Assembly: GCA_947631505.1 (NCBI GenBank) | Contig: CANRLR010000020.1 | Span: 1-50,247, forward strand | Length of the DNA stretch: 50,247 bases | From: an uncultured Lachnospiraceae bacterium | GTDB lineage: Bacteria; Bacillota; Clostridia; Lachnospirales; Lachnospiraceae | Reading direction: 5' to 3' | Shown here: positions 13,437 to 29,722 of the stretch, one piece after another | Layout: each line of letters begins with the position of its first letter | Position numbering within the stretch: position 1 is the stretch's first letter | Notes under the pieces: model-generated | Told to the model about the DNA's origin: nothing | Databases searched by the model: none | What the model saw: the letters and a program-made list of their open reading frames with translations, nothing else | Translations under genes and position numbers: made by a program

Positions 13437-13485
13437 TGCTTGTTTGCATTAAAACATTCAGTTGACACTTTGGAATGGAGGCAGT

Positions 13486-14202
13486 GTGAAGAGAATGATT
13501 GATTTTCATACCCATATATTACCCGGAATTGATGATGGAAGCCACGATGTAAGAGAATCCTTGTTCCTGTTGGAAAGGGAGCGTGAACAGGGAGTGAAAA
13601 AGATAGTGGCGACTCCTCATTTTTATGCGCAGAAGGATACCGTTGCCCATTTTTTGGAGTGCCGGCAGAATGCTTATCAGGAACTTGCTGGGCATTTGCA
13701 GGGGCAGGACAAAGAGGTTCCTATTCTTGCAGGGGCAGAGGTGTACTATTTCCCGGGAATCGGGGAGGCAAAGCAGCTTGTGGACTTGTGCGTGGAAGAG
13801 TCTTCCGTTCTTTTGTTAGAGCTTCCCTTTGTTCCGTGGACAGAGGGGATTTACAATGATGTGAAAAAAATAATAGAAAAGCAGAAAATAACAGTTTTAC
13901 TTGCCCATGTGGAACGGTATTATGAATTTCAGAAAGATAAGAAAATTTGGAATCGTATTTTTGAACTGCCGTTGTATGCACAGATAAATACTGGTGGAAT
14001 GGGGCGAAGAAAGAAGAGACGCTTTGTGGAACAGTTTATGAAAACAAATGTACCGGTTGTTCTAGGAAGTGACTGCCATAACAGGAAAGACCGTTTACCC
14101 AATATGCAGGAGGGAAGAGCTTGTATAAAGGCACTCTGTGGTGAGAAAGCAGTTGAGGAAATTGATAGAACAGGAGAAAGGTTGTTTCAGCAGCATGAGT
14201 AA
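13486..14202 (+). CDS. PHP-type protein-tyrosine phosphatase of the capsule system (CpsB/YwqE family)
   Basis: The protein has 238 residues from a GTG start with GGAGG four bases upstream; ATG at 13495 is the alternative. PHP metal-site motifs are all present: FHTHILPGIDDG near the N-terminus, ATPHFY, the GAE of AGAEVYYF, LAHVERY, and GSDCHNRKDR close to the end. This Mn-dependent family removes phosphate from the tyrosine cluster of the cognate BY-kinase, encoded three genes downstream (16022-16756). It is the first gene of the capsule operon. Its last eight bases overlap the LCP gene, which suggests translational coupling. Confidence 0.88.
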   Translation: MKRMIDFHTHILPGIDDGSHDVRESLFLLEREREQGVKKIVATPHFYAQKDTVAHFLECRQNAYQELAGHLQGQDKEVPILAGAEVYYFPGIGEAKQLVDLCVEESSVLLLELPFVPWTEGIYNDVKKIIEKQKITVLLAHVERYYEFQKDKKIWNRIFELPLYAQINTGGMGRRKKRRFVEQFMKTNVPVVLGSDCHNRKDRLPNMQEGRACIKALCGEKAVEEIDRTGERLFQQHE

Positions 14203-15232
14203 AAAAGAGAAAAGAAAAGTGCTTCTTCTCCTTGCTGCTATGCTGGCAATTATAGTGGTATTTGGCATTGTTATGACATTGCTGGAAAAGCATATGCCGG
14301 AGGCAGCTGTTACGGATGCCGGATTTTTGGCAGAAGATGTGCTGGTGCAGCAAGAAGAAGCCAAGGGAAGTGTTTTGCTGGGAGGTAAACACTATGATTA
14401 TACGCACGAATATGAAACCTATCTTTTTATCGGAACCGATGATACAGGAACATCGGAGAATGAAAATTATCAGGGAAGTATGAGCGATTTTTTGCTTCTT
14501 GTTGTTTTAGATCAGACAGCAGATACCTATTCGTTTCTGCCGATAAACCGCGATACGATGACAGATATAACGCTTTTGCAAAAGGATGGGACTGGCAAGG
14601 CATCCGCAGAACTTCAGATTTGTACGGCACACTGGTACGGAGGAAGTGAAGAGCAGAGCTGTGAAAATACAGTAGAGGCTGTCTCACATCTATTGGGTAA
14701 TATTCCGATTAACGGATATTATTGTCTTTCAATGAATGCGATTCCTGAGCTGAATCATGCGATTGGAGGAGTTGAAGTTACACTGCTGGAGGATTTCACA
14801 AAAGTGGATAAGCAAATGACAAAAGGAAGGAGCATGACCTTGACAGACTCACAGGCATATCATTATATACATGACCGGTATGGTATCGGGGATGAAGAAA
14901 ACATTTCCCGTATGCGAAGGCAGCAGCAATATATACAGGCAATGTTTAAAAAGGCGAGGAGACAGCTGAAGGAGAACAAGACATTTCTCTATACACTGTA
15001 TCAGGAAATGGAAGAGAATGCTATTACAAATATAAAAGGGAAAAAGGTATCCCGCTTAGCTAAAGAGATGCCGCAGGCGGAAGAAAAAGGATTCTACGAA
15101 TTAGAAGGCCGTTTTGAACTCGGACAGGCACTGGGGGATGGCATCAATCATGTGGAATTTTATGTGGATAAAAATTCATTAATTCAGGTAATGACAGAAT
15201 TATATGGATTGAAAAAGAGAAATGGAGATTAG
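14195..15232 (+). CDS. LytR-CpsA-Psr (LCP) family glycopolymer ligase
   Basis: The protein has 345 residues. ATG at 14195 overlaps the end of the phosphatase gene (ATGAGTAA). One membrane segment lies at about residues 9-30, so the catalytic domain is outside. LCP landmarks are YLFIGTDD, SDFLLLVVLD, INRDTM (conserved Arg that contacts the pyrophosphate lipid), the LNHAIGGVEVTL region, and HDRYGIGDEENISRMRRQQQ (the second arginine cluster). LCP enzymes transfer lipid-linked glycopolymers to peptidoglycan. Its place between the phosphatase and the Wzz gene suggests that the polysaccharide made here is attached to the wall. Confidence 0.88.
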   Translation: MSKKEKRKVLLLLAAMLAIIVVFGIVMTLLEKHMPEAAVTDAGFLAEDVLVQQEEAKGSVLLGGKHYDYTHEYETYLFIGTDDTGTSENENYQGSMSDFLLLVVLDQTADTYSFLPINRDTMTDITLLQKDGTGKASAELQICTAHWYGGSEEQSCENTVEAVSHLLGNIPINGYYCLSMNAIPELNHAIGGVEVTLLEDFTKVDKQMTKGRSMTLTDSQAYHYIHDRYGIGDEENISRMRRQQQYIQAMFKKARRQLKENKTFLYTLYQEMEENAITNIKGKKVSRLAKEMPQAEEKGFYELEGRFELGQALGDGINHVEFYVDKNSLIQVMTELYGLKKRNGD

Positions 15233-15237
15233 TTAAA

Positions 15238-16041
15238 ATGAATCAAAAGACGGAAATTGTGCAGATGAAAGAAAAAGATGAGGATATCGAGATTAATCTT
15301 TTTGAGCTGGTATCCTACTATTGGACGAAAATCGGCATTATTCTGGCAGGCTTTCTGTTTGGTGCTGTTATTGCGGCGATTATTACTTTTTACTTTATTA
15401 CTCCACGATATACAGCAACATCCAAATTATACATGGTATCTGCTTCCAGTGATTCAATTGTGGATTTAACGGACTTAAACATTGGAACGTCGCTTTCAAC
15501 GGATTATGAGCAGTTACTTCAGGTAAGGCCGATTTTTGAAGAAGTAATTGAAAAAGAAAAGCTTTCTTATACGTATGAGCAGTTATTGGATATGGTTAAA
15601 ATTTCTACTGTGACAGATACCCGTATTCTCTCGATTTCTGTAGAAAGCACGAAGCCGGAGGAGGCGATGAAAATTGCAAACCGGCTGGCAGATATGGCAG
15701 TTTCTGAATTGCCAAGACTGATGGATACTTCCAAACCGAATATTGCCGAGAATGCAATATTGCCAAAGGATAAGAGTTCGCCAAGTCTCTTTCGGAATGT
15801 TGTAATTGGTGCTCTGGCAGGAATGGCAATGGTGCTCGCTGTATTAACCTTTTTCTATGTGACAGATGATACGATGAAATCTGCAGAGGATATTGAAAAG
15901 GAATTTGGTATCATGCCTCTTACCGTAATTCCGGAAGGAGACGTGGAAGCGATTTCCGATGAGCGGGAAAAAGAGATTCAAAAGAAAAAAAAGAAAAGAC
16001 GAGGAAAGGAAAAGCGAAAGAATGAAAACCGTAAACGTTAA
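15238..16041 (+). CDS. Wzz/CpsC-type chain-length regulator and BY-kinase adaptor
   Basis: The protein has 267 residues. A Wzz-type N-terminus (INLFELVSYYWTKIGIILAG) and the first membrane helix at about 30-55 are followed by the extracytoplasmic Wzz domain (PRYTATSKLYM...). Residues about 165-178 include a Pro motif (AENAILPKDKSSPS) before the second helix (about 182-205). The tail is highly basic (about 20 Lys/Arg at the end). In Gram-positive bacteria this protein activates a separately encoded kinase, and here that kinase follows with a 20-base overlap. It sets polymer length together with Wzy. Confidence 0.88.
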   Translation: MNQKTEIVQMKEKDEDIEINLFELVSYYWTKIGIILAGFLFGAVIAAIITFYFITPRYTATSKLYMVSASSDSIVDLTDLNIGTSLSTDYEQLLQVRPIFEEVIEKEKLSYTYEQLLDMVKISTVTDTRILSISVESTKPEEAMKIANRLADMAVSELPRLMDTSKPNIAENAILPKDKSSPSLFRNVVIGALAGMAMVLAVLTFFYVTDDTMKSAEDIEKEFGIMPLTVIPEGDVEAISDEREKEIQKKKKKRRGKEKRKNENRKR

Positions 16042-16756
16042 AAATATGCCGGAGCTTCCTTATGCGATGGAAGAAGCCATCAACAGGCTTCGCATCAATA
16101 TTAGTTTTTTGGGAACGGATATACGAAAAATAATGGTTATCAGTACAATGCCAAACGAGGGGAAAAGTTTTGTGGCAATGCAGCTGTGGCATCAGATCGC
16201 AGTGGCAGGAACATCGACACTCCTATTGGATGCCGATTTAAGAAAATCAGTAATGACTGATAAATATGACATTGTATCAGAGCAGGGCACCATACAAGGA
16301 ACTTCCCATTACCTTGCCAATGACTATTCAATTCAAGATGCGATTCTTCACACCCAGTGGGAGAATGGTGACATTCTTCCCAATGTGGATAACGTCGTAA
16401 ATCCGTCCATGCTTTTGGAGAGTGAGCGGTTTGAAGAAATGCTTCATTATGTGGAAGAAAAGTACCGTTATATCTTTGTGGATTCGCCGCCGCTTAATTT
16501 GGTTTCTGACGGAGAGCGGATCGGTAATCTTTGTGACGGGGCGATTTTGGTAGTAAGGGGCGGTGTGACCTCAAAGCATATCGTAAAAAATTCGATTCGC
16601 CAGTTAGAGCGGGCGGGCTGCCCACTGTTAGGAATTGTATTGAACCGTGTCGAGGGAGCTAAGGCAGGATATTATTACAAACGCTATGGGGGTAAATATT
16701 ATGGCAGCAGATATTATAGTGGGAAGTATTACAGTGATACTTACTATGGCAAATAA
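16022..16756 (+). CDS. Bacterial tyrosine kinase (BY-kinase, CpsD/CapB family)
   Basis: The protein has 244 residues. ATG at 16022 was chosen because AAAGGA lies upstream and the protein then starts at the expected distance before the kinase fold; the open frame extends to 15959. Walker A is STMPNEGKS (41-49), with Asn where many relatives have Gly. Walker A' is LLLDADLRKS (67-76), and Walker B is YIFVDSPPLN. The last 30 residues hold a dense tyrosine cluster (YYYKRYGGKYYGSRYYSGKY and beyond), the autophosphorylation site. It works with the Wzz-like adaptor just upstream and is reversed by the PHP phosphatase at the head of the operon. Confidence 0.88.
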   Translation: MKTVNVKNMPELPYAMEEAINRLRINISFLGTDIRKIMVISTMPNEGKSFVAMQLWHQIAVAGTSTLLLDADLRKSVMTDKYDIVSEQGTIQGTSHYLANDYSIQDAILHTQWENGDILPNVDNVVNPSMLLESERFEEMLHYVEEKYRYIFVDSPPLNLVSDGERIGNLCDGAILVVRGGVTSKHIVKNSIRQLERAGCPLLGIVLNRVEGAKAGYYYKRYGGKYYGSRYYSGKYYSDTYYGK

Positions 16757-17481: not shown

Positions 17482-18945
17482 ATGTACCACAGAAGAGTTC
17501 AGAGCTGGATGAAACATATGGATTTTTTAGTTCAGGAATTGATTTGTTTTCAGCTGGCATTCTGTATCGCCTGTATAATGCGTCATGGATGGATCAATCC
17601 ATATTATAGTGTGCTCTATCGCAATACTGCTATTGTCGCAGCTATGATACAGATTTTTATTATCGTTGGTTTTAATGTCTTTAATGATATTTTGTGGCGT
17701 GGCTACTATAAGGAATTTATAAATTCCGTGAAGACCGTAGTCATGGTAATGTTATTGATGGTATTTTATTTGTTCCTGATTCAGCAGGGAGTAACGTTCT
17801 CCCGGTTCGTGCTGATTGCAACGACAGGATACTACTGGGCCTTCTGTTATTTATTTCGTGGCTTGAGAAAGTATTATCTGCGATTGAAGAGTTCAGAAAA
17901 TCAGGGAGAAAAGTCCCTGATTGTAGTAACTACCAAAAAAAGAGCCGAAAAGACAGTGTGTAAGCTTCGGGAGAAAAATATCAATGAGTTCGTGCTTACC
18001 GGAATTATATTATTGGATTGCGAGGTATTGCCGGAGGGCGGGAACTCAACTTTTGGTGAGCTGAAAGGAATCCCTGTGGTGGCCGGATACAATAATGCAG
18101 CAGAATACTTATGCCGGGACTGGGTCGATGAAGTGTTTCTTGATGTGAAAGAAATGGATACTTATTGTAGAACTCTCATACATACGATGGCAGACATGAA
18201 TATGGTAATTCATTTGAGGATTGGTGACAGCGAGGATTTCCCGATTCAGAAAAAAGCGATACAGCAAATCGGGGACAGCACGGTGGTTACCATGAGCTCT
18301 CAGATTCGGAATATGAGAGAGGCCTTTGTCAAAAGGCTTATGGACATTGCGGGAGGGCTGGTTGGCTGCCTGTTGACAGGAATCCTGTTTCTGTTTTTAG
18401 CTCCGGCTATTTATATACAGTCACCGGGACCGGTTCTTTTTTCTCAAATGAGAGTCGGCCGTAACGGAAAGCTTTTTCGGATCTATAAGTTTCGCAGTAT
18501 GTATATGGATGCAGAGGAACGGAAGAAAGAATTACTGGCACGGAATGAATTAGAAGACGGGCGGATGTTCAAAATGGAAAACGACCCCCGCATTATCGGA
18601 AGTGAAAAAGGACCGGGCCGGGGAATCGGTAGTTTTATCCGTCGGACTTCACTGGATGAATTTCCCCAGTTTTTCAATGTACTCAAAGGAGAAATGAGTC
18701 TGGTAGGAACAAGGCCGCCTACCTTGGATGAATGGGAATTATATAATCCCCATCACAGGAGCCGGCTGTCAATTAAGCCGGGACTTACAGGTATGTGGCA
18801 GGTCAGTGGACGCAGTGATGTCCAAAATTTTGAAGAGGTGGTTGCACTGGACCGCCGGTACATTGCTGAGTGGTCATTGGGACTGGATATAAGGATTCTG
18901 CTAAAAACGATAGTGACAGTGATAAGAGGAGAGGGAGCAAAGTAG
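17482..18945 (+). CDS. Polyprenyl glycosylphosphotransferase (initiating sugar-1-phosphate transferase)
   Basis: The protein has 487 residues. It has an N-terminal membrane region (four or five helices up to about residue 125), a central nucleotide-binding-like domain (about 145-260, starting KSLIVVTTKKRAEK), one more membrane helix (about 290-315), and the catalytic bacterial sugar-transferase domain. The catalytic motifs are KRLMDIAGG, SPGPVLFSQMRVGRNGK, IYKFRSMYMDAE, the DE of RRTSLDEFPQ, FNVLKGEMSLVGTRP and PGLTGMWQVSGR. It transfers a sugar phosphate from a UDP-sugar to undecaprenyl phosphate, the first step of repeat-unit synthesis. The donor sugar cannot be read from the sequence. Confidence 0.9.
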   Translation: MYHRRVQSWMKHMDFLVQELICFQLAFCIACIMRHGWINPYYSVLYRNTAIVAAMIQIFIIVGFNVFNDILWRGYYKEFINSVKTVVMVMLLMVFYLFLIQQGVTFSRFVLIATTGYYWAFCYLFRGLRKYYLRLKSSENQGEKSLIVVTTKKRAEKTVCKLREKNINEFVLTGIILLDCEVLPEGGNSTFGELKGIPVVAGYNNAAEYLCRDWVDEVFLDVKEMDTYCRTLIHTMADMNMVIHLRIGDSEDFPIQKKAIQQIGDSTVVTMSSQIRNMREAFVKRLMDIAGGLVGCLLTGILFLFLAPAIYIQSPGPVLFSQMRVGRNGKLFRIYKFRSMYMDAEERKKELLARNELEDGRMFKMENDPRIIGSEKGPGRGIGSFIRRTSLDEFPQFFNVLKGEMSLVGTRPPTLDEWELYNPHHRSRLSIKPGLTGMWQVSGRSDVQNFEEVVALDRRYIAEWSLGLDIRILLKTIVTVIRGEGAK

Positions 18946-19134: not shown

Positions 19135-19869
19135 ATGAAAATGGAAATGCATATACATACAAGATATTCAAAGGATAGTTTACTTTGCTTTTGGCCGTTA
19201 TATTTAAAATGCCGACTGTTGAATATAGATGCTCTTGCAATAACAGAACATAACAATATTGATGGTGCAAAAAAATTTAAAAATTTTTGTGAGAAACATG
19301 GTAAACGTATTTTTGTAATTGTAGGTGAGGAAATCTTTACATCAGAGGGGGAGGTAATAGGTCTATATCTTTCGGAACCTATAGCTCCGGGAATGACAGC
19401 TGAAAAAACAATGGATGAAATAAAAAAGCAAAATGGGGTAATATGTGTCCCACATCCTTATGATGAAAAAAGAAATAAAACAGTTCTAAAGGAATCTGTA
19501 ATAGCAAAAAATGCGAAAAGAATTGACTGTATAGAAGTATATAATGGGCGAAATATTTCTTCTGTTTATGAGGAAAAGCAGTTGGAAATTGCAAAAAAAA
19601 ATGCTGTGCCCTATATCATAGGTTCAGATGCACATACATGGCTTGAAATAGGTAGAAATTATATAGAGATTGAAAATGTACCAGTGAATCCGATTGAATT
19701 TAGAGAGAACATAAAAACTGCGGTTTTTCACAAGAGAGATTGTATTTGGATCGCACACCAGATAACAAAAATTGTGAAAATACTAAAACTTATAATGAAG
19801 GGTGATTATAATGCAATATTTGAGGCTGTCAATAGAAGAATTAAAAACACAATGCAAGGATTGGGCTGA
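19135..19869 (+). CDS. PHP-domain metal-dependent phosphoesterase
   Basis: The protein has 244 residues. PHP motifs are MEMHIHTRYSKDS at the N-terminus (H-x-H), DALAITEHNNIDG, GEEIFTSEGEVIG, VPHPYD and IGSDAHTWLEIG. These are the metal ligands of the COG0613-type phosphoesterases and histidinol-phosphatase relatives, distinct from the CpsB-type protein earlier in the operon. The substrate is unknown; a sugar phosphate is the natural guess. It has an AAAGGA site upstream. It overlaps the phosphoribosyltransferase gene by 59 bases, a close coupling that suggests the two act in the same step. From here to about 28.5 kb the DNA is clearly richer in A+T than before. Confidence 0.82.
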   Translation: MKMEMHIHTRYSKDSLLCFWPLYLKCRLLNIDALAITEHNNIDGAKKFKNFCEKHGKRIFVIVGEEIFTSEGEVIGLYLSEPIAPGMTAEKTMDEIKKQNGVICVPHPYDEKRNKTVLKESVIAKNAKRIDCIEVYNGRNISSVYEEKQLEIAKKNAVPYIIGSDAHTWLEIGRNYIEIENVPVNPIEFRENIKTAVFHKRDCIWIAHQITKIVKILKLIMKGDYNAIFEAVNRRIKNTMQGLG

Positions 19870-20419
19870 TGCCATTCAGAATACATATTATCCGGATTTG
19901 ATTATTTATGTTGCAAAGGGAGGATTTTTAATTGGTTATGAACTTTCTAAAAATATGAAAGTTCCGATGTTAGGAATAGAAACAGTTAGGGAAAAAGGAA
20001 ATGGCATTAAAGATTTTGCAGCACCAGTTTTACGTATAATGCCAGACTTTATTAGAAACTTTCTGATTACAGTAGAACTAAAAAACGGAATACATGAAAG
20101 AAATAACAGGCGAGAAGTAAGATTTATTGACGATTGCCATAGTGAACAATATAAATCGGGACAGAAGATTTTAATTGTGGATGATTCTGTTGATACTGGG
20201 GCGTCAATTGCTGCTGTAAAAAAATATATAATAAAAAAATTTCCTTCTTCAGATATTAAGGTTGCAGGATTTAATGTATGGGATAAAAGCAGGAGATTAG
20301 TTGCTACGGATTTTGCTTATTACCACAATACGGTAATAAGAGCACCGATGTCAAAAGACAGCCGGGAGTACAAAATATTTCTGAAAGAATTTAACGATTA
20401 TCAAAGGAAAAGGATATAA
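19811..20419 (+). CDS. Phosphoribosyltransferase-fold protein in the polysaccharide cluster
   Basis: The protein has 202 residues. ATG at 19811 has GAAGGG about nine bases upstream and lies inside the 3' end of the PHP gene. The PRPP-binding loop ILIVDDSVDTGAS (about residues 119-131) is that of type I phosphoribosyltransferases. The hydrophobic strand PDLIIYVAKGGFLIGYEL also fits the PRTase fold (the K-G-G pyrophosphate loop). No purine- or pyrimidine-specific hood is obvious. Its place between a PHP phosphatase and a DUF115 protein in a capsule operon is unusual. It may use PRPP to supply a ribosyl group, but salvage of a nucleobase cannot be excluded. Confidence 0.78.
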   Translation: MQYLRLSIEELKTQCKDWADAIQNTYYPDLIIYVAKGGFLIGYELSKNMKVPMLGIETVREKGNGIKDFAAPVLRIMPDFIRNFLITVELKNGIHERNNRREVRFIDDCHSEQYKSGQKILIVDDSVDTGASIAAVKKYIIKKFPSSDIKVAGFNVWDKSRRLVATDFAYYHNTVIRAPMSKDSREYKIFLKEFNDYQRKRI

Positions 20420-20422
20420 ATT

Positions 20423-21244
20423 ATGCATCAGTGTATATTTCATCTCAAACATAATAGATTCATACGATTTTTTTTAAAACCATTCATGGAATTGAAATCT
20501 TTATATAAAGAAAAATCTTTTCAGGTTTCGGTCTATCCTGAGATAATTAGAAAATATAAGAACAAGTACAGCGGGAAAAGATGTTTTATTATCGGTAATG
20601 GACCAAGTTTAAATCCAAACGATTTAGAACAAATTAAAAATGAGTTCAGCTTTGCTGCAAATCGGATATATAATATCTTTGATAAAACGAACTGGCGTCC
20701 GACATTTTATGTAAGTACGGATATGGATATAATACGTCAGGAATTCAATACAATAAAGAAGATTCATCAGCCGGTTAAGTTTATTAATTATGATGCACAT
20801 AAATATTTTAAAGACGAAGTTGATAAAACAATATATCTGTTCCTAAAAGGAAGGTTTGAACTTGTGAGAAATAAATTTGTTCAAAACGGAGTCAGCAAAG
20901 ATGTGGCGATGTATTCTACGAAAACGCAGACAGTTACCTGTGTAAGTATGGAATTGGCAATGTATATGGGTTTTAATGAAATTTTTTTATTAGGGGTCGA
21001 TCATAAGTTTTCCAGGTATGTTGACGCAGATGGTAAATTGAAAGAAGATAAAACGGTACAAAATTATTTTCCGGGTATGAAAGGTGGTGAACAGCAGGCA
21101 ATATTGTATGTTGATGATACAACAGCCTGCTACAAGACAGTGAAGCAATATGCAGAACAAAGAAATATTAAAATATTCAATTTGACAAGAGGAGGAAAAT
21201 TGGACGTATTTGAAAGGAGAAAATTAGAAGATGTTCTCGGATGA
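20423..21244 (+). CDS. DUF115/MptE-like Rossmann-fold protein, possible glycosyltransferase
   Basis: The protein has 273 residues. The core motif RCFIIGNGPSLNPNDL (about 53-68), then FAANRIY, WRPTFYVSTD, and later CVSMELAMYMGFNEIFLLGVD follow the pattern of the DUF115 (6-hydroxymethylpterin pyrophosphokinase MptE-like) superfamily. This superfamily includes the Maf proteins that glycosylate flagellin with CMP-activated nonulosonic acids, and relatives are common in capsule clusters. The context with a CMP-sugar synthetase in the same operon makes sugar transfer the better guess than pterin metabolism. It starts three bases after the PRTase stop and overlaps the GT2 gene by 14 bases. Confidence 0.75.
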   Translation: MHQCIFHLKHNRFIRFFLKPFMELKSLYKEKSFQVSVYPEIIRKYKNKYSGKRCFIIGNGPSLNPNDLEQIKNEFSFAANRIYNIFDKTNWRPTFYVSTDMDIIRQEFNTIKKIHQPVKFINYDAHKYFKDEVDKTIYLFLKGRFELVRNKFVQNGVSKDVAMYSTKTQTVTCVSMELAMYMGFNEIFLLGVDHKFSRYVDADGKLKEDKTVQNYFPGMKGGEQQAILYVDDTTACYKTVKQYAEQRNIKIFNLTRGGKLDVFERRKLEDVLG

Positions 21245-22277
21245 TTGTGATAAGCCTCTTGTTAGTATAATTTTGCCACTGTTTAACGCAAAAAAATATA
21301 TTTATCAAACGCTTCGATCCATACAGAATCAAACTTATCAAAACATAGAAGTGATAGTTATAGATGATGGCTCCACCGATGGAAGTAAGGAAATCTGTGA
21401 AAAATTTGTTGATTCAGACACAAGATTTAAACTCTATTCAAAGAAAAATACAGGTATATCCAATACAAGAAATGTGGCTATTCATAAAGCTGTGGGCAGG
21501 TATATAGCCTTTTGCGATCATGATGATTGTATGGATATCAATCTGATACAGGAACTCTTAAATATAATTGTAAAGAATGACGCCGATATTGCGTTTGCCA
21601 ACTATTCTATTCAATATATTGACCAAAGTGGGCAATATATAAAAAAAATAAATGCCGGACTAGAAACAGGTATATATACAAAACAGGAAATATTAGAAAA
21701 AATACCTTTTATGAGAAAAAGTTTTCAGTCTGTATGGAACGGATTATATAAAAAGGAATTATTTCTTGAAAATAATATATTCTTTGATGAAACAATGAAA
21801 TCTGGTGGTGAGGATATTACACTAAATTATCAATTATTGCAATTTGCAAATAAAATTGTTACAACAGATAAGATACTTTATTATCACTTCAAACGAATTG
21901 GTCAAAGTGCATCTACTTTCTTGAATGAAAACCGAATTGATGCAATTATAAAATTTTCAGAGATGGAAGAAAAAATTATTTGGGATAATGTTGAGGATAA
22001 TAAATGGAAAAAAATTGCTATAGCATGTGAGCGGATGGCAAATTTATCTCTAATATTGACTGTGTTAGTGCAGTCAGGCGCAGATGAAAAGACACAGATC
22101 CAAGAATTAAAAAGGATTCGAAAAAATTCAAAAATAGATTTTTGTATAAAAAACGGGGAAAGTAATGCTTGTTTTTTTATGATACACAATTTTCCTAAGA
22201 GATGGATGGCGTCGATTTTGTTTCGGTTTAAACTTTACAAAATATTGCTTAAACTAAGCAGGAAACGAGCGAATTAG
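21231..22277 (+). CDS. GT2-family glycosyltransferase
   Basis: The protein has 348 residues. The GT-A fold N-terminus is typical: VSIILPLFNAKKYIYQTLRS, QTYQNIEVIVIDDGSTDGS (first Asp pair) and AFCDHDDCMD (the D-x-D metal site as DHDD). KSGGEDITLNYQLLQ provides the acceptor-side ED motif. The C-terminal 120 residues are basic and hydrophobic and probably touch the membrane. It adds one sugar to the lipid-linked repeat unit. It is the only conventional glycosyltransferase in this operon, which implies either a very short repeat unit or additional non-classical transferases. AAAGGAG lies about 11 bases before the ATG. Confidence 0.88.
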   Translation: MFSDDCDKPLVSIILPLFNAKKYIYQTLRSIQNQTYQNIEVIVIDDGSTDGSKEICEKFVDSDTRFKLYSKKNTGISNTRNVAIHKAVGRYIAFCDHDDCMDINLIQELLNIIVKNDADIAFANYSIQYIDQSGQYIKKINAGLETGIYTKQEILEKIPFMRKSFQSVWNGLYKKELFLENNIFFDETMKSGGEDITLNYQLLQFANKIVTTDKILYYHFKRIGQSASTFLNENRIDAIIKFSEMEEKIIWDNVEDNKWKKIAIACERMANLSLILTVLVQSGADEKTQIQELKRIRKNSKIDFCIKNGESNACFFMIHNFPKRWMASILFRFKLYKILLKLSRKRAN

Positions 22278-22296: not shown

Positions 22297-22308
22297 ATGA
22301 AGCGATGA
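22297..22308 (+). other. Three-codon mini-ORF (MKR-stop) coupled to wzy
   Basis: AAAGGAG (22284-22290) is six bases before an ATG at 22297 that reads ATG-AAG-CGA-TGA. The stop overlaps the wzy start as ATGA (22305-22308). The best-placed start therefore belongs to the mini-ORF, and wzy would be reached by re-initiation. It may be chance or a point mutation. Confidence 0.4.
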
Positions 22309-23567
22309 AAATCACAATGAAAAAATTATATAGTATGATACTTTTGCTAATAATATTCATAGCAATTTTAGTTTTAAGAATTTTTGATTATAGAATACAG
22401 ACCTATGTACTATGCGGATTGCTCATGTTATTCTATCTTTTTTTGAATCAACAGTACATATTTTTCTGCATATCCAAATATGGATTAAAAATTTGTGCAA
22501 TTTTTGTTTTTCTTGTGTTAATGACTTTAATATCTGTAATAGAATCGAAAACAAGAATTTCGTTCTTTTATCAAATAATGTTATTTTTCTTGTTTTATAT
22601 TTTCTTTTCTACTTTTTATATAAAAAATGGAGAAAATAGTTATCATTGGTTATTTTTGTCCTTATATAAAGCTAGTATTTTTTTATCGCTCGCTGGAATA
22701 TATGAAGGATTGATAAGAGAAAATCTATTTCGTGATTTAATCTATTCAAATTATTTTGCGTATGCCGAACATACAGATTTATATCGTGTCAGTCTTATGT
22801 TTATTCATCCGATTGTATACGCACATTTTGTGATGCTTATGCTGATTTATGGATTCTATTTTGATAAAAGCAAGTATAAGATAATCAACTGCACAATTTT
22901 ATTAGTAAATATATATCTGACAAAAGCGAGATCTATTTGGATTTCTATTGCAGTTGTAGCAGTTATTTACCTTATCAAAAAAAATATTTTATGCAGAAAT
23001 AAAATAAAAAAAAGGACGCTGATTTGTTTATTTGCTATGCCTGTTGTTCTATTGTTGGGATATTATTATTTTTTAGATGAGTTTATTGTACAAAAGATCT
23101 GGGGGAGATTTATTGAAGCTTTTTCATCCAATTCGTATTTCCTTAGAATTAGTGCGATAAATAATTTGCTGGAATACTTTCTTCATGATAATTCGTTCCT
23201 TAGAATTTTATTTGGAAATGGGAATGGTGCGGCAACAGTTATGATGGAAAATGTGGTTAGTGTACGTGGCATTGGACAGTATTCAATGACAACAACGGAT
23301 AATTTTTATTTAAGTTTTTTGTATAATTTCGGTATATTTACAATTTTTATCTTGTTTTTATTTCTAATCGGAGTATTTAAGAGAACATTAACTACGAATC
23401 ATAGATTGCTGGAGTATATTGGATTGTCCTTAATAAGCAGCATAATTGCAATTGTTTTTTATGATGTATTTAGTTGGGAAATTATAATTTTTCTAATAAT
23501 GTCCCAAGTTGCCTTATACAATATGATAACTTTAAACAATATATCTGATAAGGAGATAAATAAGTGA
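22305..23567 (+). CDS. Wzy-type polysaccharide polymerase / O-antigen ligase-like membrane protein
   Basis: The protein has 420 residues with about ten to twelve hydrophobic segments, poor sequence conservation and very AT-rich codons, as usual for Wzy proteins. A larger outside loop lies at about 275-330 and contains the LFGNGNGAA-like element seen in many O-antigen polymerases. [14 protein letters not shown] is reminiscent of the Wzy_C T-x-S-R motif. In the Wzx/Wzy pathway this protein joins repeat units outside the membrane. The neighbours Wzx (24198-25637) and the Wzz-like protein agree. The start is inside an ATGA overlap with the mini-ORF. Confidence 0.82.
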
Positions 23568-24220
23568 TGTATCTACTGAAACAAATAAGACACAACATAA
23601 AATATTTCTTTGCCCAGAGACAGTGGAGAAACCAGAATAAACATAATTTTACGGTTTTATCTCAAGAATCATCCTTAGATATAGCAAGAGTAACTATTGG
23701 AAAAGGTACCTATGGAAAAATTGATTTTGAAATTTTTCATGATATGAATTCTTGTTTAATAATTGGAAATTATTGTTCGATTGGACCTAAGGTGAAATTT
23801 TTATTGGCTGGGGAACACGATTACAAAAGATTGTCGACATATCCATTCAAATTCCGTTATCTACATGACAGTTGTGAAACTTTTAGCAGGGGAGATATTA
23901 AGATCGAAGATGATGTATGGATAGGATATGGGGCGATGCTCCTTTCCGGTGTAACGATAGGGCAAGGTGCTGTAATTGGTGCAGGAAGCATTGTTCGTGA
24001 GGATGTCCCTCCCTATTCTATCTATTGCAATGACAATATAAAAAAATATAGATTTGATAGTCATACAATTGATATGCTTATGCGGTTTGATTATTCGTCT
24101 CTTGAGCCAAAGGATATAAAAGATGATATAGAAAAATTATACTTGAATATCAAGGAATTCTGTAAAACAGACTTCTATCATGAAAGGTCAAAAGAAGATG
24201 GAGACAATGGAAACGCTTAA
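23567..24220 (+). CDS. CatB-type O-acetyltransferase (left-handed beta-helix)
   Basis: The protein has 217 residues. ATG at 23567 overlaps the wzy stop as TGATG and has AGGAG upstream. Hexapeptide repeats are visible: [20 protein letters not shown], then the catalytic-histidine loop [12 protein letters not shown], and [33 protein letters not shown]. This is the arrangement of CatB/WbbJ-type sugar O-acetyltransferases using acetyl-CoA. It probably decorates a sugar of the repeat unit. The ending [18 protein letters not shown] is a helical tail. It overlaps the flippase gene by 23 bases if that starts at 24198. Confidence 0.87.
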
Positions 24221-25637
24221 AAAAAGAACCTTATTAAATTTAAAGGCTGCATTTGTATCACAGTTATTTTCCTTTTTAGTCAGCATGATAATGTCAATTG
24301 TAGTTCCCAAAGTAATTGATGTAGAACAATTTTCATATTGGCAGCTGTTTCTTTTTTATGCAAATTATGTTGGACTATTTTTATTTGGTCTGAATGATGG
24401 AATTTATTTACGTATCGGCGGCAAGACCTATAGTGAAATCAATAAATCTCTTTTGGGAACACAATTCAAATTGTCTGTGATTATGCAAAGTGTAGTAATG
24501 TTGCTGATTATGCTTTATGCAAAATGTTTTGAAACGGATATAATTCGGGCTTTAGTTCTAGTAAGAGTAGCGGTATATCTCATTATATTTAATCTGCATG
24601 GTTTTCTTGGATATATAATGCAGGCAGTTAATTTGGTAAATAAATATTCTAAGTCAATCATTATTGAAAAAGCCATATTTTGTATCATAATAATTGGTTT
24701 GATATGGAAGAGAACCGAAGCTTTTACTTTGTATGTTGATGCTTACATTATGTGTAAGGCAGTATCATTCGTATATCTGATGATAGTATCAAGAGAACTG
24801 CTTTTTTCGAAAATGTACTCTTTGAAGACCGCTTTTTTTGAGATAAAAACGAATATTTCGATTGGTATTCATTTGATGATTGCAAATATATCGAATAGTA
24901 TGATACTAGGGATTGGCCGTTTTTTGATTGATAAGAGATGGGATGTCATTACATTTGGAAAGGTTTCATTAGCTTTATCACTTGTGAATTTTTTTCTCAT
25001 ATTTATCAGCCAGACCAGTATCGTTTTATTTCCGGCACTACGGTGCGTAACACAAAAGCAGCTTGTTAATTTGTATCATAAGATGAGACTTGTTTTAGGT
25101 GTGACACTTTCTTCTGTTTTTTTTCTATATATTCCAATTAAAATATTAGTGAGTTGGTGGCTGCCGCAATATGAGAAAAGCATTTACTATTTAATTTTTC
25201 TTTTGCCAATCTGTACTTATGATGGAAAAATGAACATAATGTGCAGTACATTTTTTAAAGTATTAAGACGTGAGAAGATTCTTTTGGCTGTAAATGTCAG
25301 CAGCATGTTTGTGAGCCTTATGACGGTTTATACATCAGCGGTCATCAATCATAATTTGAATTATGTGCTTATCGGTATGACTTTTAGTGTAGCTTTCCGA
25401 TGTATCTTGTCAGAAATAGTTTTGTCAAAGGTCTTGCATGTCAATGTCATCAAGGAAATAATGGAAGAGAGCATTCTAGTTATAATATTCATTTTGTCAT
25501 CATTAACTTGTAATAATTTGTCCGCATTTTTAGTAAATGGAATTATGTATATCATTTATATATGGATGAATCGTAATAGAATGAAACAATATTTACCGGA
25601 GCGTTTCATAAAGCACAATCAGCATTGTAGAAGATAG
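24198..25637 (+). CDS. Wzx-type polysaccharide flippase (MOP/PST family)
   Basis: The protein has 479 residues with about twelve to fourteen membrane segments. The start is uncertain: 24198 has AAGG about ten bases upstream, and 24180 and 24207 are alternatives in the same frame. The N-terminus ([20 protein letters not shown], then [20 protein letters not shown]) is typical of polysaccharide-specific transporters of the MOP family. Wzx moves the finished lipid-linked repeat unit across the membrane for Wzy. No other flippase is present in the operon. Confidence 0.85.
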
Positions 25638-25649
25638 GAGAAAAAACTT

Positions 25650-26384
25650 ATGAAAGTTGTAGGAATTATTCCGGCCCGTTATGGCTCAACAAGACTTCCA
25701 GGTAAACCTTTAAAAGATATTTTAGGTCATCCAATGATCTGGTGGGTTTATAAAAGAGTTTGTACAGTACATAAAATTGATGAAGTTTATGTTGCTGCTG
25801 ATGACGACAGAATTAAGACTGTATGCGAGGAAAATAATATTCCTGTTGTGATGACGGCAAATACTCATAGGGCTGCAGCATACAGACTTCAGGAAGTTTC
25901 AGAGGTCATAAAGGCGGATTTTTATGTCCAGCTGAATGGTGATGAGCCTCTGATAAATACGGAAGCAATTGCAGCATCAATTCCTGATTATGTTCCACAG
26001 GATGTTGAATTCGGTACGAATATCATTACTGAGATGAACGATCCAGCACAGGTAATGGATTCATCAAATATAAAGATGGTGTTTGATAATGATATGAATG
26101 CATTGTATATGTCCAGAGCACCAATTCCATATCCATTTAAAGCGATTGATTTTAAGTTTTATAAACATGTGGGCATTATCGGATATAACAAAAAGATGCT
26201 TGATTTTTATAAAAAAACAGTTCCCGGTAGATTTGAATTGATTGAAGGAATCGATACACTTAGATTTTTAGATTATGGAAAGCAATTAAAGCTTTCACTC
26301 GTATCCAGTTGTCACAGCTTATCTGTTGACACAGATAAAGATCTTGAGATGGTACTCAAGATGATGAAGGAAGGTAATAATTAA
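25650..26384 (+). CDS. kdsB: KdsB-like CMP-ulosonate cytidylyltransferase
   Basis: The protein has 244 residues, the usual length for KdsB. The CTP-binding signature GIIPARYGSTRLPGKPL (about 4-20) is complete, and QLNGDEPLI carries the metal-binding Asp. The segment that in KdsB reads SGTDR is here HRAAAYRL, a change near the sugar pocket that suggests a substrate other than Kdo. HVGIIGYNKKML and RFELIEGIDTLRFLDYG match the family's C-terminal half. It activates a 2-keto-3-deoxy sugar acid as the CMP derivative. Kdo itself is not expected in a Gram-positive cell. The stop overlaps the next start as TAATG. A GGAG site precedes its own start. Confidence 0.85.
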   Translation: MKVVGIIPARYGSTRLPGKPLKDILGHPMIWWVYKRVCTVHKIDEVYVAADDDRIKTVCEENNIPVVMTANTHRAAAYRLQEVSEVIKADFYVQLNGDEPLINTEAIAASIPDYVPQDVEFGTNIITEMNDPAQVMDSSNIKMVFDNDMNALYMSRAPIPYPFKAIDFKFYKHVGIIGYNKKMLDFYKKTVPGRFELIEGIDTLRFLDYGKQLKLSLVSSCHSLSVDTDKDLEMVLKMMKEGNN

Positions 26385-27943
26385 TGGCAGTTTATGATTT
26401 AAAATTACTTGACTGTACGCTGCGTGATGGAGGATATGTAAACGACTGGAAATTTGGATTTGATGGGGCAAGGGATATTATAAAACAGCTTACCAAAGCA
26501 AATATTGATGTTGTAGAAGTAGGCTTTTTACGCAATGTTGAAGACTATGATCCGAATATCACAGTATGTAATTATATTGAAGAACTTAATCGACTTCTTC
26601 CTGAGAATACGGAAAATACTATTTATTCTGCAATGGCAATGCGTAGTAATTATGACATTAATAAGCTATCTCCATATTCTGGCAGGGGCATTGAGATGAT
26701 TCGTATTACTGCACATGATTATGATATTGAAGATGGTATGGATTTTGCCAGAGAAGTTAAGGCCAAGGGGTATAAATTAAGTATAAATCCGATTAATATA
26801 ATGGGATACTCAGATGAAAGAATTCTTTGGATAATTAATCAGGTAAATCAGATTCAGCCATATCAGTTTTCTATTGTGGATACATTTGGCAGTATGAAGA
26901 GAAGAGATTTGGATAGAATAGTAAGCTTAGTTGATAATAACTTAGACAGGAATATTCGGGTGGCTCTTCATTTACATGAAAATATGTCGCTCAGCTGTTG
27001 TCTGGCACAAAATTTTATTGATAAGCATCTAAAGAGAGCGGTTGCTGTTGATGGAAGTCTGATGGGCATGGGAAGAATACCAGGTAATTTGCCAATTGAA
27101 CTTATTGCCGATTACGCAAATGATTATGCAGGAAAGGCATATGATATTGATTTTTTGATGGATGCGATTAATGAATATATTGCTCCAATAAAGGGTACAT
27201 CTGAGTGGGGATATGCACCGGCATATTTCCTTTCTGCCAGATATAATCTTCATCGTAATTATTCTGAGCATTATTTAACAAAAGGTGATCTGACAAACCG
27301 GGAGATAAATCATATTTTATCTCAATTTACTTATTCCAAAAAGGCCGTATTTGATGTAGAATACGCTGATAGCCTTTATGAAGCATATAAAAACAACCAA
27401 ATTGATGATAGTGAAGCATGGGAAAAATTAAAGAAAGAACTTTTCGGAAAGAATATCCTTGTTTTGGCACCTGGTTCAACCATCAGAACGCACAAGGAAA
27501 TTATAGAACAATTTATTATTCAAAATAGACCAATTGTTATTGGAACAAATTTTATTCCCCAAGATTATAAAGTGGATTTCGCTTTCTTTAGTAATAATAA
27601 AAGATTTAGCAAAGTTGAACTGCCTGCTTGTAAAGTAATTGTAACTTCTAACTTGACAAGTGGATGCCCTGACTTTAAGATTAATTATAATAGTGTTTCC
27701 GGTGCGTTTGTTCAAGGGTGCAATAGTTTAATAATGTTATTAAAATTGCTCAAGAACATAGGTGTTACACAAATTAATCTAGCAGGTGCAGACGGATATA
27801 AAGTGGATGCGGGCAACTATTATAGCAATACTATAAAGAGTTCTACAGTACATGATAATAAATTTAACTTAGCAGTGAAAGAAGCAATACATAATTTAAG
27901 AGTTACTGTGGATTTTATAACTCCTTCTGAATACAATAAATGA
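26384..27943 (+). CDS. HMGL-like (DRE-TIM) aldolase fused to a C-terminal DUF115-like domain
   Basis: The protein has 519 residues. The N-terminal 300 residues form a DRE-TIM metallolyase: LLDCTLRDGGYVNDWKF (8-24) with the divalent-metal Asp and catalytic Arg, VDVVEVGFL, IVDTFGSM, the metal HLHEN pair, and GMGRIPGNLPIEL near the end. Relatives include 4-hydroxy-2-oxovalerate aldolase and HMG-CoA lyase, which handle pyruvate or acyl units. From about residue 356 a second domain starts (NILVLAPGSTIRTHKEII, VIGTNFI, VDFAFFSNN, SLIMLLKLLKNIGVTQINLAGADGYKV). Its layout parallels the separate DUF115 protein at 20423-21244. Between KdsB-like and KdsC-like genes, the enzyme probably makes or modifies a 2-keto-3-deoxy acid. 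Confidence 0.8.
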   Translation: MAVYDLKLLDCTLRDGGYVNDWKFGFDGARDIIKQLTKANIDVVEVGFLRNVEDYDPNITVCNYIEELNRLLPENTENTIYSAMAMRSNYDINKLSPYSGRGIEMIRITAHDYDIEDGMDFAREVKAKGYKLSINPINIMGYSDERILWIINQVNQIQPYQFSIVDTFGSMKRRDLDRIVSLVDNNLDRNIRVALHLHENMSLSCCLAQNFIDKHLKRAVAVDGSLMGMGRIPGNLPIELIADYANDYAGKAYDIDFLMDAINEYIAPIKGTSEWGYAPAYFLSARYNLHRNYSEHYLTKGDLTNREINHILSQFTYSKKAVFDVEYADSLYEAYKNNQIDDSEAWEKLKKELFGKNILVLAPGSTIRTHKEIIEQFIIQNRPIVIGTNFIPQDYKVDFAFFSNNKRFSKVELPACKVIVTSNLTSGCPDFKINYNSVSGAFVQGCNSLIMLLKLLKNIGVTQINLAGADGYKVDAGNYYSNTIKSSTVHDNKFNLAVKEAIHNLRVTVDFITPSEYNK

Positions 27944-27958
27944 TTAGGAGTATACAGT

Positions 27959-27988
27959 ATGCGAATCCATTTTTTTGAAAGAAGATGA
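27959..27988 (+). other. Nine-codon mini-ORF overlapping the KdsC-like gene region
   Basis: TTAGGAG (27944-27950) lies eight bases before ATG at 27959, which reads MRIHFFERR and stops in ATGA (27985-27988), an alternative in-frame start of the phosphatase. It contains a run of seven T. It could be a coupling leader or the scar of a lost start. Confidence 0.35.
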
Positions 27989-27996
27989 GGAAACGG

Positions 27997-28509
27997 ATGA
28001 ATACAATAAAACTTTTAGTTGTAGATGTCGATGGTACTATGACAGATGCTGGTATCTATTATGACCAAAACGGCAATGAATTAAAAAAATTCTGTACGAA
28101 AGATGCAGCGGGTTTTTTTGCAGCTCGCCGAGTCGGTATGAAAATAATGGTGCTCACTGGTAGGGAAAGTGAGGCAACAACACGAAGAATGACAGAAATG
28201 AAAGTGGATTATCTATACCAGAACGTGAAAAATAAGGTTAAGTTTTTAATGAAATTCATGGAAGAGAATGATATAAAAAAGGAAGAGCTTGGCTATATTG
28301 GGGATGATCTGAATGATTTACCATCGATGTTATTAGCGGGCTATGTTGGATGTCCGGCTGACAGCTGTTCTGAAATTAAAGAAATTGCTAACTACGTAAG
28401 TCCGGTAAAAGGTGGATATGGAGCAGTGCGGGATGTAATTGAACATATACTTCGTGAAACGAATCAATGGAGTGATGCTGTTGCCAGCATATACGGAATA
28501 GGTATCTAA
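27997..28509 (+). CDS. kdsC: KdsC-like HAD phosphatase
   Basis: The protein has 170 residues, the family length. ATG at 27997 has GAGG six bases upstream; 27985 is a possible in-frame earlier start. HAD motifs: I LLVVDVDGTMTDAG (nucleophile Asp and acid/base Asp), II VLTGRESE, III the conserved Lys in VKNKVKFL, IV YIGDDLNDLPSM. The set is that of the C0-type KdsC/CMP-sialate-cluster phosphatases, which hydrolyse the phosphate of a 2-keto-3-deoxy-sugar acid after condensation. It completes the three-gene set with the KdsB-like and aldolase genes. The transcript has no obvious terminator before the vanZ scar. Confidence 0.85.
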   Translation: MNTIKLLVVDVDGTMTDAGIYYDQNGNELKKFCTKDAAGFFAARRVGMKIMVLTGRESEATTRRMTEMKVDYLYQNVKNKVKFLMKFMEENDIKKEELGYIGDDLNDLPSMLLAGYVGCPADSCSEIKEIANYVSPVKGGYGAVRDVIEHILRETNQWSDAVASIYGIGI

Positions 28510-28704: not shown

Positions 28705-28833
28705 GAAGCCATAAGCATAAATTATCTAAAGTCTTATATCAAATGTCTATTGTGCACTGCACATATCTGGAAATCTATGCTTTCAAAAATCAATGAAAAG
28801 AGCAGGATTTTCAGAAGATGAGATTTTTGGAGA

Positions 28834-28853
28834 CTCCTGCTGCAGAACAGGAG
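28834..28853 (+). promoter_or_regulatory. Hairpin that would cover the ribosome site of the Rpn-family gene
   Basis: CTCCTG (28834-28839) pairs with CAGGAG (28848-28853). The 3' arm is most of the AGGAGG ribosome site (28849-28854) seven bases before the TTG start. Pairing would hide it and lower translation. Confidence 0.45.
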
Positions 28854-28861
28854 GATGCCTA

Positions 28862-29722
28862 TTGACAAAAGTAAAACGAACGTACAAAGATACACTGTTC
28901 CGTTGCCTTTTTGACAACCGGAAGAATCTGTTGTCTTTGTATAATGCAGTAAACCACACCACCTACGAAAATGAGGAAGATTTGGAGATTAATACGCTAG
29001 AAAATGTGATATATCTAAAGATAAAAAATGATGTATCTTTTGTCTTCAATTTATATCTCAATCTATATGAACATCAGGCAAGTCTGAACCCTAACATGCC
29101 GTTGCGAAACCTCTTTTATGTAAGTGATTTGTTGCAGGCAATCATAGCAGACGAGAACATATACAGTGATAGTCTGATTTCCATTCCAACGCCGCGTTTT
29201 GTTGTATTTTACAACGGAGAGACTAAGATGCCGGAGCGAATGCTGTTACGACTTTCGGATTCATTTTCACAACCGGAAGAATCTCCGGAATTAGAACTAA
29301 AAGTTACAGTGTACAACATAAACAAAGGTATGAATACAGAATTGCTGGAAGCCTGTCATACGTTAAAAGAATATATGGAATTTGTGCAGATGTTTCGTGA
29401 AAATCTGCAATGCTATGATAAGGCAACAGCAGCCAAGAAAACAATAGATACGTGTATAGAAGAAAATGTATTGTCGGATTTTTTGAAAAAGCACCGAGCG
29501 GAGGCGATAGCAATGTGCCTATACGAGTATGACGAAGAAAAGCATATGGAAATGGAACGAAGAGAACATTATGAACGTGGGAAACAGGAAGAAAAACGTC
29601 GAGGTATACAAATTTTGATTAAACAATGCCGAAAACTAAATCAGTCGGATGAAGTGATTGTTCAGGTTATCATGGATGAATATGAGATGACGGAACAGGA
29701 GGCAAAGGAACTTTTGGGGTAA
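28862..29722 (+). CDS. Rpn-family recombination-promoting nuclease / PD-(D/E)XK transposase-like protein
   Basis: The protein has 286 residues from a TTG start at 28862, chosen because AGGAGG lies seven bases upstream and the family begins with the KVKRTYKDTLFRCLF segment. ATG at 28793 in the same frame has no ribosome site. Family landmarks are NRKNLLSLYNAVNHTTY, LENVIYLKIKNDVSF, NLYEHQASLNPNMPLRNLFYV (nuclease core), IPTPRFVVFYNG, and a long Glu/Arg-rich helical tail. The acidic position before NLYEHQ reads FNLYL, so one catalytic Asp may be missing. It has its own promoter and a strong terminator and looks like a self-contained inserted cassette between two pieces of vanZ. Confidence 0.85.
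   Translation: MTKVKRTYKDTLFRCLFDNRKNLLSLYNAVNHTTYENEEDLEINTLENVIYLKIKNDVSFVFNLYLNLYEHQASLNPNMPLRNLFYVSDLLQAIIADENIYSDSLISIPTPRFVVFYNGETKMPERMLLRLSDSFSQPEESPELELKVTVYNINKGMNTELLEACHTLKEYMEFVQMFRENLQCYDKATAAKKTIDTCIEENVLSDFLKKHRAEAIAMCLYEYDEEKHMEMERREHYERGKQEEKRRGIQILIKQCRKLNQSDEVIVQVIMDEYEMTEQEAKELLG

Follow-up and report, generated by a model that had tools for sequence, protein, structure and literature searches.

Textbook synthesis of ulosonic acids activated with cytidine monophosphate (CMP), such as 3-deoxy-D-manno-oct-2-ulosonic acid (Kdo) and the sialic acids, begins with a phosphoenolpyruvate (PEP)-dependent synthase. In the window analysed here, a stretch of 50,247 nucleotides (contig CANRLR010000020.1 of assembly GCA_947631505.1, from an uncultured Lachnospiraceae bacterium), a Gram-positive capsule operon ends with three adjacent genes that encode a KdsB-like cytidylyltransferase, a two-domain aldolase, and a KdsC-like phosphatase. 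The locus resembles the Kdo pathway (KdsD-KdsA-KdsC-KdsB) in its KdsB-like activation and KdsC-like dephosphorylation, but the genome lacks the PEP-dependent synthase KdsA, KdsD is likewise missing above cut-off, and an aldolase stands in place. With the sialic acid pathways (NeuB-NeuA, or the synthase, phosphatase and CMP-transferase of 2-keto-3-deoxynononic acid (KDN) 9-phosphate), the window shares a CMP-transferase and a sialyltransferase-like candidate, whereas its genome has no NeuB.

The aldolase has relatives in other described systems. Like DmpG, BphI, and MhpE (structure 1nvm), it belongs to the TIM-barrel HOA family and has an R/D/H/H metal-enolate site, but it differs from them in having Tyr18 at the position of a His, an extra C-terminal domain, and a polysaccharide context, and in falling far below the cut-offs of the family models. 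It also differs from the solved chain 3dxi, which comprises 320 residues and in which no second domain was matched. The YerE/ErwE branched-sugar pathways (RfbF-G-H plus a thiamine diphosphate (ThDP) enzyme) are similar in that aldolase relatives, including a second copy in the window genome (locus L030), occur in such clusters; unlike them, the window module has a CMP-transferase and a phosphatase and no ThDP enzyme. It is probable that the trio supplies the capsule with a CMP-activated 3-deoxy-2-ulosonic acid by a route that needs neither KdsA nor NeuB. The first-pass annotation of the window had proposed a CMP-activated 2-keto-3-deoxy acid other than Kdo, made by aldol chemistry, and the evidence that supports this proposal is genomic. 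The new element would be a different first step, catalysed by an aldolase, in an otherwise known CMP-ulosonic acid synthesis.

Composition of the three-gene module

The three open reading frames (ORFs) follow one another on the forward strand (Table 1); the first two are joined by a TAATG at 26382-26386, and a gap of 41 bp separates the second from the third. The coordinates, strand, and spacing given in the first-pass annotation were all correct, and its family assignments are backed by the CTP_transf_3 and TIGR00466 (KdsB-like), PF00682 (HMGL-type), and TIGR01670 (KdsC-like) matches. The same gene order is found in loci L001, L002 (first gene cut), L003, and L004, while L005 stops within the aldolase gene; this recurrence is more than chance. 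Just past the trio of L002, on the opposite strand (2936-3985), there is a gene that by eye resembles 3-deoxy-D-arabino-heptulosonate 7-phosphate (DAHP) synthase genes, a probably incidental neighbour.

The product of the first ORF matches CTP_transf_3 (E-value, 1.6e-43), scores 155.6 bits against the cut-off of 155.2 of the kdsB model TIGR00466, lies above or below the cut-offs of other KdsB models, and has 1gq9 as its nearest PDB chain (1.6e-42). Based on the alignment, it keeps the CTP-site and metal residues P8, R10, T14, R15, K19, R79, D98, and D227, whose roles in CTP (cytidine triphosphate) and metal binding are given in a study of Aquifex KdsB (PMC3149649). The SGTDRL segment of KdsB aligns with AAAYRL in the window protein, in which the Arg is retained. 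Comparison of 35 KdsB-like proteins, each encoded no more than 200 bp from an aldolase of the same family as that of the window, demonstrated that the cytidine-site Arg and both metal Asp are present in 35/35, while the Gln of LEQLR, seen in 5/5 solved KdsB chains shown, is present in 0/35. According to the same study (PMC3149649), LEQLR falls in the Kdo-binding half of the enzyme, and the segment equivalent to AAAYRL flanks the cytidine-contacting Arg in the nucleotide-binding half. AAAYRL, which the first-pass annotation had read as a sign of a new sugar, was therefore rejected as evidence of this kind, because it flanks a cytidine-binding Arg that is kept. The lost Gln of LEQLR is the better sign and suggests an altered sugar pocket.

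The HMGL-like domain (PF00682) covers residues 6-242 of the aldolase (E-value, 1.2e-17), and residues 5-292 make up an HOA-type TIM barrel. Models of 4-hydroxy-2-oxovalerate aldolase match at 3.9e-19 and 8.4e-17, below their cut-offs (for TIGR03217, 61.3 bits versus 286), and among solved structures the catalytic domain is nearest to the "putative aldolase" 3dxi (E-value, 1.9e-22; 3.1e-49 by profile), which we take to be of Bacteroides origin. HMG-CoA lyase and Claisen-type condensing enzymes (isopropylmalate synthase, homocitrate synthase) were considered as well and are not favoured, because their matches are weaker than those of HOA aldolases. As a correction to the earlier label of HMGL-type lyase, the nearest named relatives are 4-hydroxy-2-oxovalerate aldolases and 3dxi, not HMG-CoA lyase. 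R14, H196, and H198 are found in 135/135 aligned relatives and D15 in 134/135, and all four align with the DmpG structure 1nvm. In DmpG, the Asp and the two His are metal ligands and the Arg serves the enolate; the products of HOA-type aldolases are 4-hydroxy-2-oxo acids.

In the AlphaFold2 model of the aldolase (mean predicted local distance difference test score, 88.1), a second alpha/beta domain is predicted to start at about residue 345 and to run to residue 519. No Pfam match above cut-off was obtained for this domain. It contains the conserved motifs APG, SN, and AG.DG, and matches the SteA-like 9hmz weakly (E = 0.0015). A possible origin as a second GT42-like fold was considered but not adopted, the profile comparison giving a probability of 4.1 (P = 0.01 over 28 columns). 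The domain occurs in both the CMP and the ThDP contexts of the family described below, and therefore is not specific to CMP-sugars.

The phosphatase scores 127.9 bits against the cut-off of 106.95 of the subfamily model TIGR01670 (KdsC-phosphatas), and its top PDB match is 3e81 (4.3e-34). It is under the cut-offs of both the KdsC equivalog PRK09484 (138.1 versus 208 bits) and the KDN-9-phosphate phosphatase model NF058599 (145.6 versus 180 bits).

The window genome (G000; 2.74 Mb in 49 contigs, 99.74% complete) gave no match to KdsA (TIGR01362) and none to NeuB (PF03102), the NeuB search covering this genome and being positive in 9/14 genomes as a control. The absence of the usual condensing enzymes claimed in the first-pass annotation therefore holds for the genome as searched. 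No match was found in G000 to LpxC, a marker of lipopolysaccharide (LPS)/lipid A, and no arabinose-5-phosphate isomerase KdsD above cut-off (best, 22.6 bits versus 203.7). The sole DAHP_synth_1 protein of the genome has 351 aa and was read as AroFGH-type from its length and sequence, and the sole CTP_transf_3 protein is the KdsB-like one of the window.

Recurrence and genomic contexts of the aldolase

The aldolase was found in 91/397 sampled genomes of the bacterial family of the window (E ≤ 1e-60), in 29/391 of its class (1e-50), and in 13/398 of its phylum (1e-20), with the window genome included each time; 10 of the 13 have single-domain relatives only. The 136 loci scanned yielded 137 aldolase ORFs from 135 loci: L005, at a contig end, has none longer than 300 aa, and there are two in each of L135 and L176. 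Among these 137 are L135_3128 (a divergent 346-aa HOA-like protein next to L135_7455, assigned to the CMP group) and L094_4451 (a fragment, assigned to the ThDP group and left out of the context tree), both of which are dropped from the 135-row alignment. The single-domain relatives of the 10 phylum genomes (six neighbourhoods, L034-L039) and L027 and L031 of the window genome were left uncounted; by eye, they are outside polysaccharide clusters.

Context was assigned where a labelled gene lay on the same strand at most 7 kb away, "ThDP" including transketolase. The labels were obtained with phmmer (1e-7), for which these same loci also provided the seeds, and those of the RfbG/RfbH-, SDR-, and HAD-type families are loose; the names RfbF and RfbG were given by eye, and RfbH is supported by the annotated rfbH of L100. 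In total, 74 ORFs have a CMP-transferase, 57 a ThDP enzyme or transketolase, four both, and two neither. The CMP-transferase gene is no more than 200 bp from the aldolase gene in 65/74 CMP ORFs (upstream in 63, downstream in 2) and 0.7-6.6 kb off in the remaining 9/74, and the nearest one is KdsB-like in 44 cases and NeuA-like (NeuA/PseF-like) in 30. Among the 57 ThDP ORFs, 39 are accompanied by at least one RfbF/G/H-like gene and 30 by two or more kinds. GT42- or GT38-like genes, counted up to 9 kb away on the same strand, were observed for 37/74 CMP, 0/57 ThDP, and 2/4 ORFs with both; 7/10 scanned polysialyltransferase-like (GT38-like, PF07388) candidates, from loci other than the window, match, six of them above cut-off. 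Use of a CMP-ulosonic acid would require genes of this sialyltransferase-like kind.

At distances of up to 2.6 kb from the aldolase, a KdsC-like gene is present in 32/74 CMP versus 1/57 ThDP ORFs, a PGP-like gene in 15/74 and 25/57, and a gene resembling 2-keto-3-deoxygluconate (KDG) kinase in 3 and 0, respectively. The last three, similar to kinases of KDG or 2-keto-3-deoxygalactonate (KDGal), are located directly downstream of the aldolase, in the phosphatase slot of L032, L069, and L166, and match the kinase half of NF041633 (KHG/KDPG aldolase/sugar kinase fusion) with 522-555 bits, whose cut-off of 700 is set for the whole, longer fusion. The class of G012, tried as a source of extra kinase loci, was set aside, as it holds one genome.

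KdsA above cut-off is lacking in 67/69 listed CMP-context genomes (own included), a list drawn from CMP-context loci that does not contain the genome of L087 or the named records. Another 41 of the 69 have weaker matches to the KdsA model (≤136.6 bits versus 314), read as DAHP synthases. The gene set without kdsA, for which the first-pass annotation had suggested a genome search, is conserved across many genomes.

The position of aldolase residue 109, in the barrel strand after R107, is occupied by a small residue in 69/73 CMP rows and by I, V, or M in 55/56 ThDP rows. The difference suggests that the CMP- and ThDP-context aldolases use different acceptors, short of proof with so few independent switches: the tree has seven context switches, six of them forced by supported branches. 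Counted by phylogenetically independent pairs, residue 109 has two with and none against (p 0.5), His111 has 1.5 with and none against (median p 1), GT38/GT42-like genes with CMP average 2.5 with and none against (median p 0.5), KdsC-like genes have 1.1 with, one against being present in a small number of the random pairings (median p 1), and RfbF/G/H-like genes with ThDP have 3.7 (median p 0.125). A Fisher test on the first 38 loci (14/23 versus 0/15, p ~1e-4) ignores relatedness.

Two plasmids carry related arrangements: in Leisingera, the aldolase, KdsB-like, and HAD genes are consecutive, aldolase first, and in Desulfobaculum, RfbH, two transketolase parts, and the aldolase are found together. 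The second two-domain aldolase of the window genome (34% identity; contig C26, L030 3247-10926) is part of an RfbF-RfbG-RfbH-aldolase-ThDP-SDR cluster, i.e., the other context of the family. In L096 (6882-11907), a single-domain aldolase gene is placed, as judged by eye, between a PEP-mutase/cytidylyltransferase fusion-like gene and a phosphonopyruvate-decarboxylase-like ThDP gene, so that a phosphonate link is possible. The aldolase match of L062 (G696:C12:165256-166266) contains one internal TAG.

Proposed pathway and alternative products

In the proposed pathway, the aldolase would hold a divalent metal via D15, H196, and H198, with R14 aiding the formation of pyruvate enolate, and would add the enolate to a phosphorylated aldehyde, of which glyceraldehyde 3-phosphate is the likeliest candidate, giving a 2-keto-3-deoxy-4-hydroxy sugar acid phosphate. 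The KdsC-like phosphatase would then take off the phosphate, and the KdsB-like enzyme would move CMP from CTP to O2 of the free ulosonic acid. The GT42-like protein encoded upstream may place the ulosonic acid onto the repeat unit, which would be polymerised by the Wzx/Wzy-type operon. In the ThDP context, with its RfbF/G/H-like genes and YerE/ErwE-like enzyme, the 4-hydroxy-2-oxo acid made by the aldolase would lose its carboxyl group and be joined to a CDP-4-keto-dideoxysugar. The ThDP enzyme ErwE is reported to prefer 4-hydroxy-2-oxo acids (PMC12247030), and these are the expected products of the aldolase.

Since the aldolase family occurs both with CMP-transferases and with RfbF/G/H plus ThDP enzymes, one C-C-forming module would have two outputs. 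Our tentative proposal, held with somewhat less than even confidence, is that this metal-dependent pyruvate aldolase family broadly provides the surface polysaccharides of bacteria with 4-hydroxy-2-oxo sugar acids, which either become CMP-activated short (C6-type, KDG-like) acids used by sialyltransferase-like enzymes or enter branched sugars through ErwE-like ThDP decarboxylation; in the window, the product would be CMP-KDG or an isomer, destined for a Gram-positive capsule. The C6 size is a hint taken from the KDG-type kinases, which favour it by occupying the phosphatase slot in three loci. CMP-KDG or an isomer was not found as a sugar nucleotide in the open-access literature searched, where no account of the three-gene set was recognised either, judging by titles and the starts of abstracts.

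By the same route, a C9 (KDN-like) acid could be formed from pyruvate and mannose 6-phosphate or a similar hexose phosphate. The likeness of the phosphatase to the KDN-9-phosphate enzyme leaves room for this, the NF058599 model and 3e81 being its best NCBIfam and PDB matches; besides, the 30 NeuA/PseF-like nearest transferases among the CMP ORFs, a match of L070 to PseF (below cut-off), and the sialyltransferase-like candidate of the window fit such a product. The NF058599 score is nevertheless below cut-off, the three kinases indicate C6, and the aldehydes normally used by HOA-type aldolases are short, which makes a C9 acid rather unlikely. Kdo itself, for which the aldolase would join pyruvate either to arabinose 5-phosphate, giving Kdo 8-phosphate, or to arabinose, giving Kdo, would agree with the KdsB- and KdsC-like enzymes on either side, but is very improbable: KdsD, the source of arabinose 5-phosphate, is not found above cut-off, which speaks against Kdo, as do the LEQLR Gln shared by the solved KdsB chains and missing from all the linked proteins, the KdsC equivalog score, and the unmatched LpxC.

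The aldolase might instead make a small 4-hydroxy-2-oxo acid, or perform a retro-aldol cleavage, for some other polysaccharide decoration, with the CMP-transferase next to it through operon packing. The 57/137 ORFs that have ThDP enzymes or transketolases in place of CMP-transferases are in line with this idea, and residue 109 differs by context, so the substrates may differ. The tight spacing of the CMP-transferase in most CMP ORFs argues against mere packing, and the window genome has neither NeuB nor KdsA as an alternative source of substrate for the cytidylyltransferase; we regard this explanation as improbable.

Several observations weigh against the aldolase-based CMP-ulosonic acid pathway. 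The His aligned with Tyr18 of the window aldolase is catalytic in DmpG-type aldolases, and position 18 is variable in the family (Y 110, R 7, C 7, H 5, and F 5 of 135 rows); no assay of any family member was found. There is no GT38/GT42-like gene within 9 kb of 37/74 CMP ORFs, neither a phosphatase nor a kinase was recognised up to 2.6 kb from 24/74 (31/57 in the ThDP context), and KdsA is above cut-off in 2/69 genomes. The kinase clue comes from three relatives, not from the window, and for every model that they match, including KDG/KDGal kinase, these kinases score below the curated cut-off. The six phylogenetically independent context pairs are too few for a significant sign test. As for Leisingera, its aldolase forms a long branch that does not belong to the main clade, and its HAD protein has no NCBIfam match at 1e-10.

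Capsule operon and significance of the module

The setting in a Gram-positive capsule operon, as recognised in the first-pass annotation, was confirmed by Pfam matches to CpsB/CapC, LytR-CpsA-Psr, Wzz, and a priming sugar transferase (Table 1). The G–C content is 0.29-0.34 over 20-28 kb, compared with 0.38-0.40 on both sides, a drop typical of variable capsule regions. When combined into a profile with four relatives, the MptE-like protein matches the CstII-type sialyltransferase 2x63 (E-value, 5.4e-5), with which the group has the motifs GNGPSL and EIYL.G.D in common, and the relatives were seen solely in loci with a CMP-transferase. This protein is a candidate GT42-like transferase of the CMP-ulosonic acid.

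Table 1. Annotated features of the capsule operon and the three-gene module (window positions).
Feature	Position	Strand	Basis
CpsB/CapC	13462-14202	+	Pfam
LytR-CpsA-Psr	14138-15232	+	Pfam
Wzz	15238-16041	+	Pfam
CpsD-like ATPase	15959-16756	+	name inferred from AAA_31 and position
Priming sugar transferase	17482-18945	+	Pfam
MptE-like/GT42-like protein, candidate CMP-ulosonic acid transferase	20423-21244	+	PF01973 6e-19
GT2	21231-22277	+	
Wzy_C-like polymerase	22305-23567	+	match just below cut-off
Hexapeptide acetyltransferase	23564-24220	+	
Hydrophobic 485-aa protein, putative flippase	24180-25637	+	inferred; no family match
KdsB-like CMP-(ulosonic acid) cytidylyltransferase, 244 aa	25650-26384	+	CTP_transf_3, TIGR00466, 1gq9
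Two-domain HOA-type (DRE-TIM) pyruvate aldolase, 519 aa	26384-27943	+	HMGL-like, 3dxi, metal site
Aldolase C-terminal domain, residues 345-519, alternating alpha/beta	27416-27940	+	secondary structure of model
KdsC-like HAD phosphatase, 174 aa	27985-28509	+	TIGR01670, 3e81

Other genes were noted around these features. Within the operon, ahead of the MptE-like gene, 19135-20419 encodes a PHP-domain protein and a phosphoribosyltransferase-like protein. Behind the capsule genes, 28793-29722 encodes a member of a family of 309-314 aa, alike by eye, which recurs at least twice on contig C26 (L030 17553-18497 and 19745-19992); the window copy has no Pfam match. At 2-7297, a 2431-aa reading frame with an open 5' end contains Listeria-Bacteroides repeats and Ig-like domains.

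The comparisons support the view that the window holds one example of an aldolase module that is widespread. If the proposed pathway is true, the first step of CMP-ulosonic acid synthesis would have been invented separately here, with an aldolase, and such a start would account for KdsB- and KdsC-like genes in a Gram-positive bacterium without the LPS marker. The family would also be a source of the hydroxy-oxo acid donors needed by ErwE-type enzymes, and unknown acidic surface sugars would be predicted in many clostridial bacteria, given the 91/397 genomes with the aldolase in either context.

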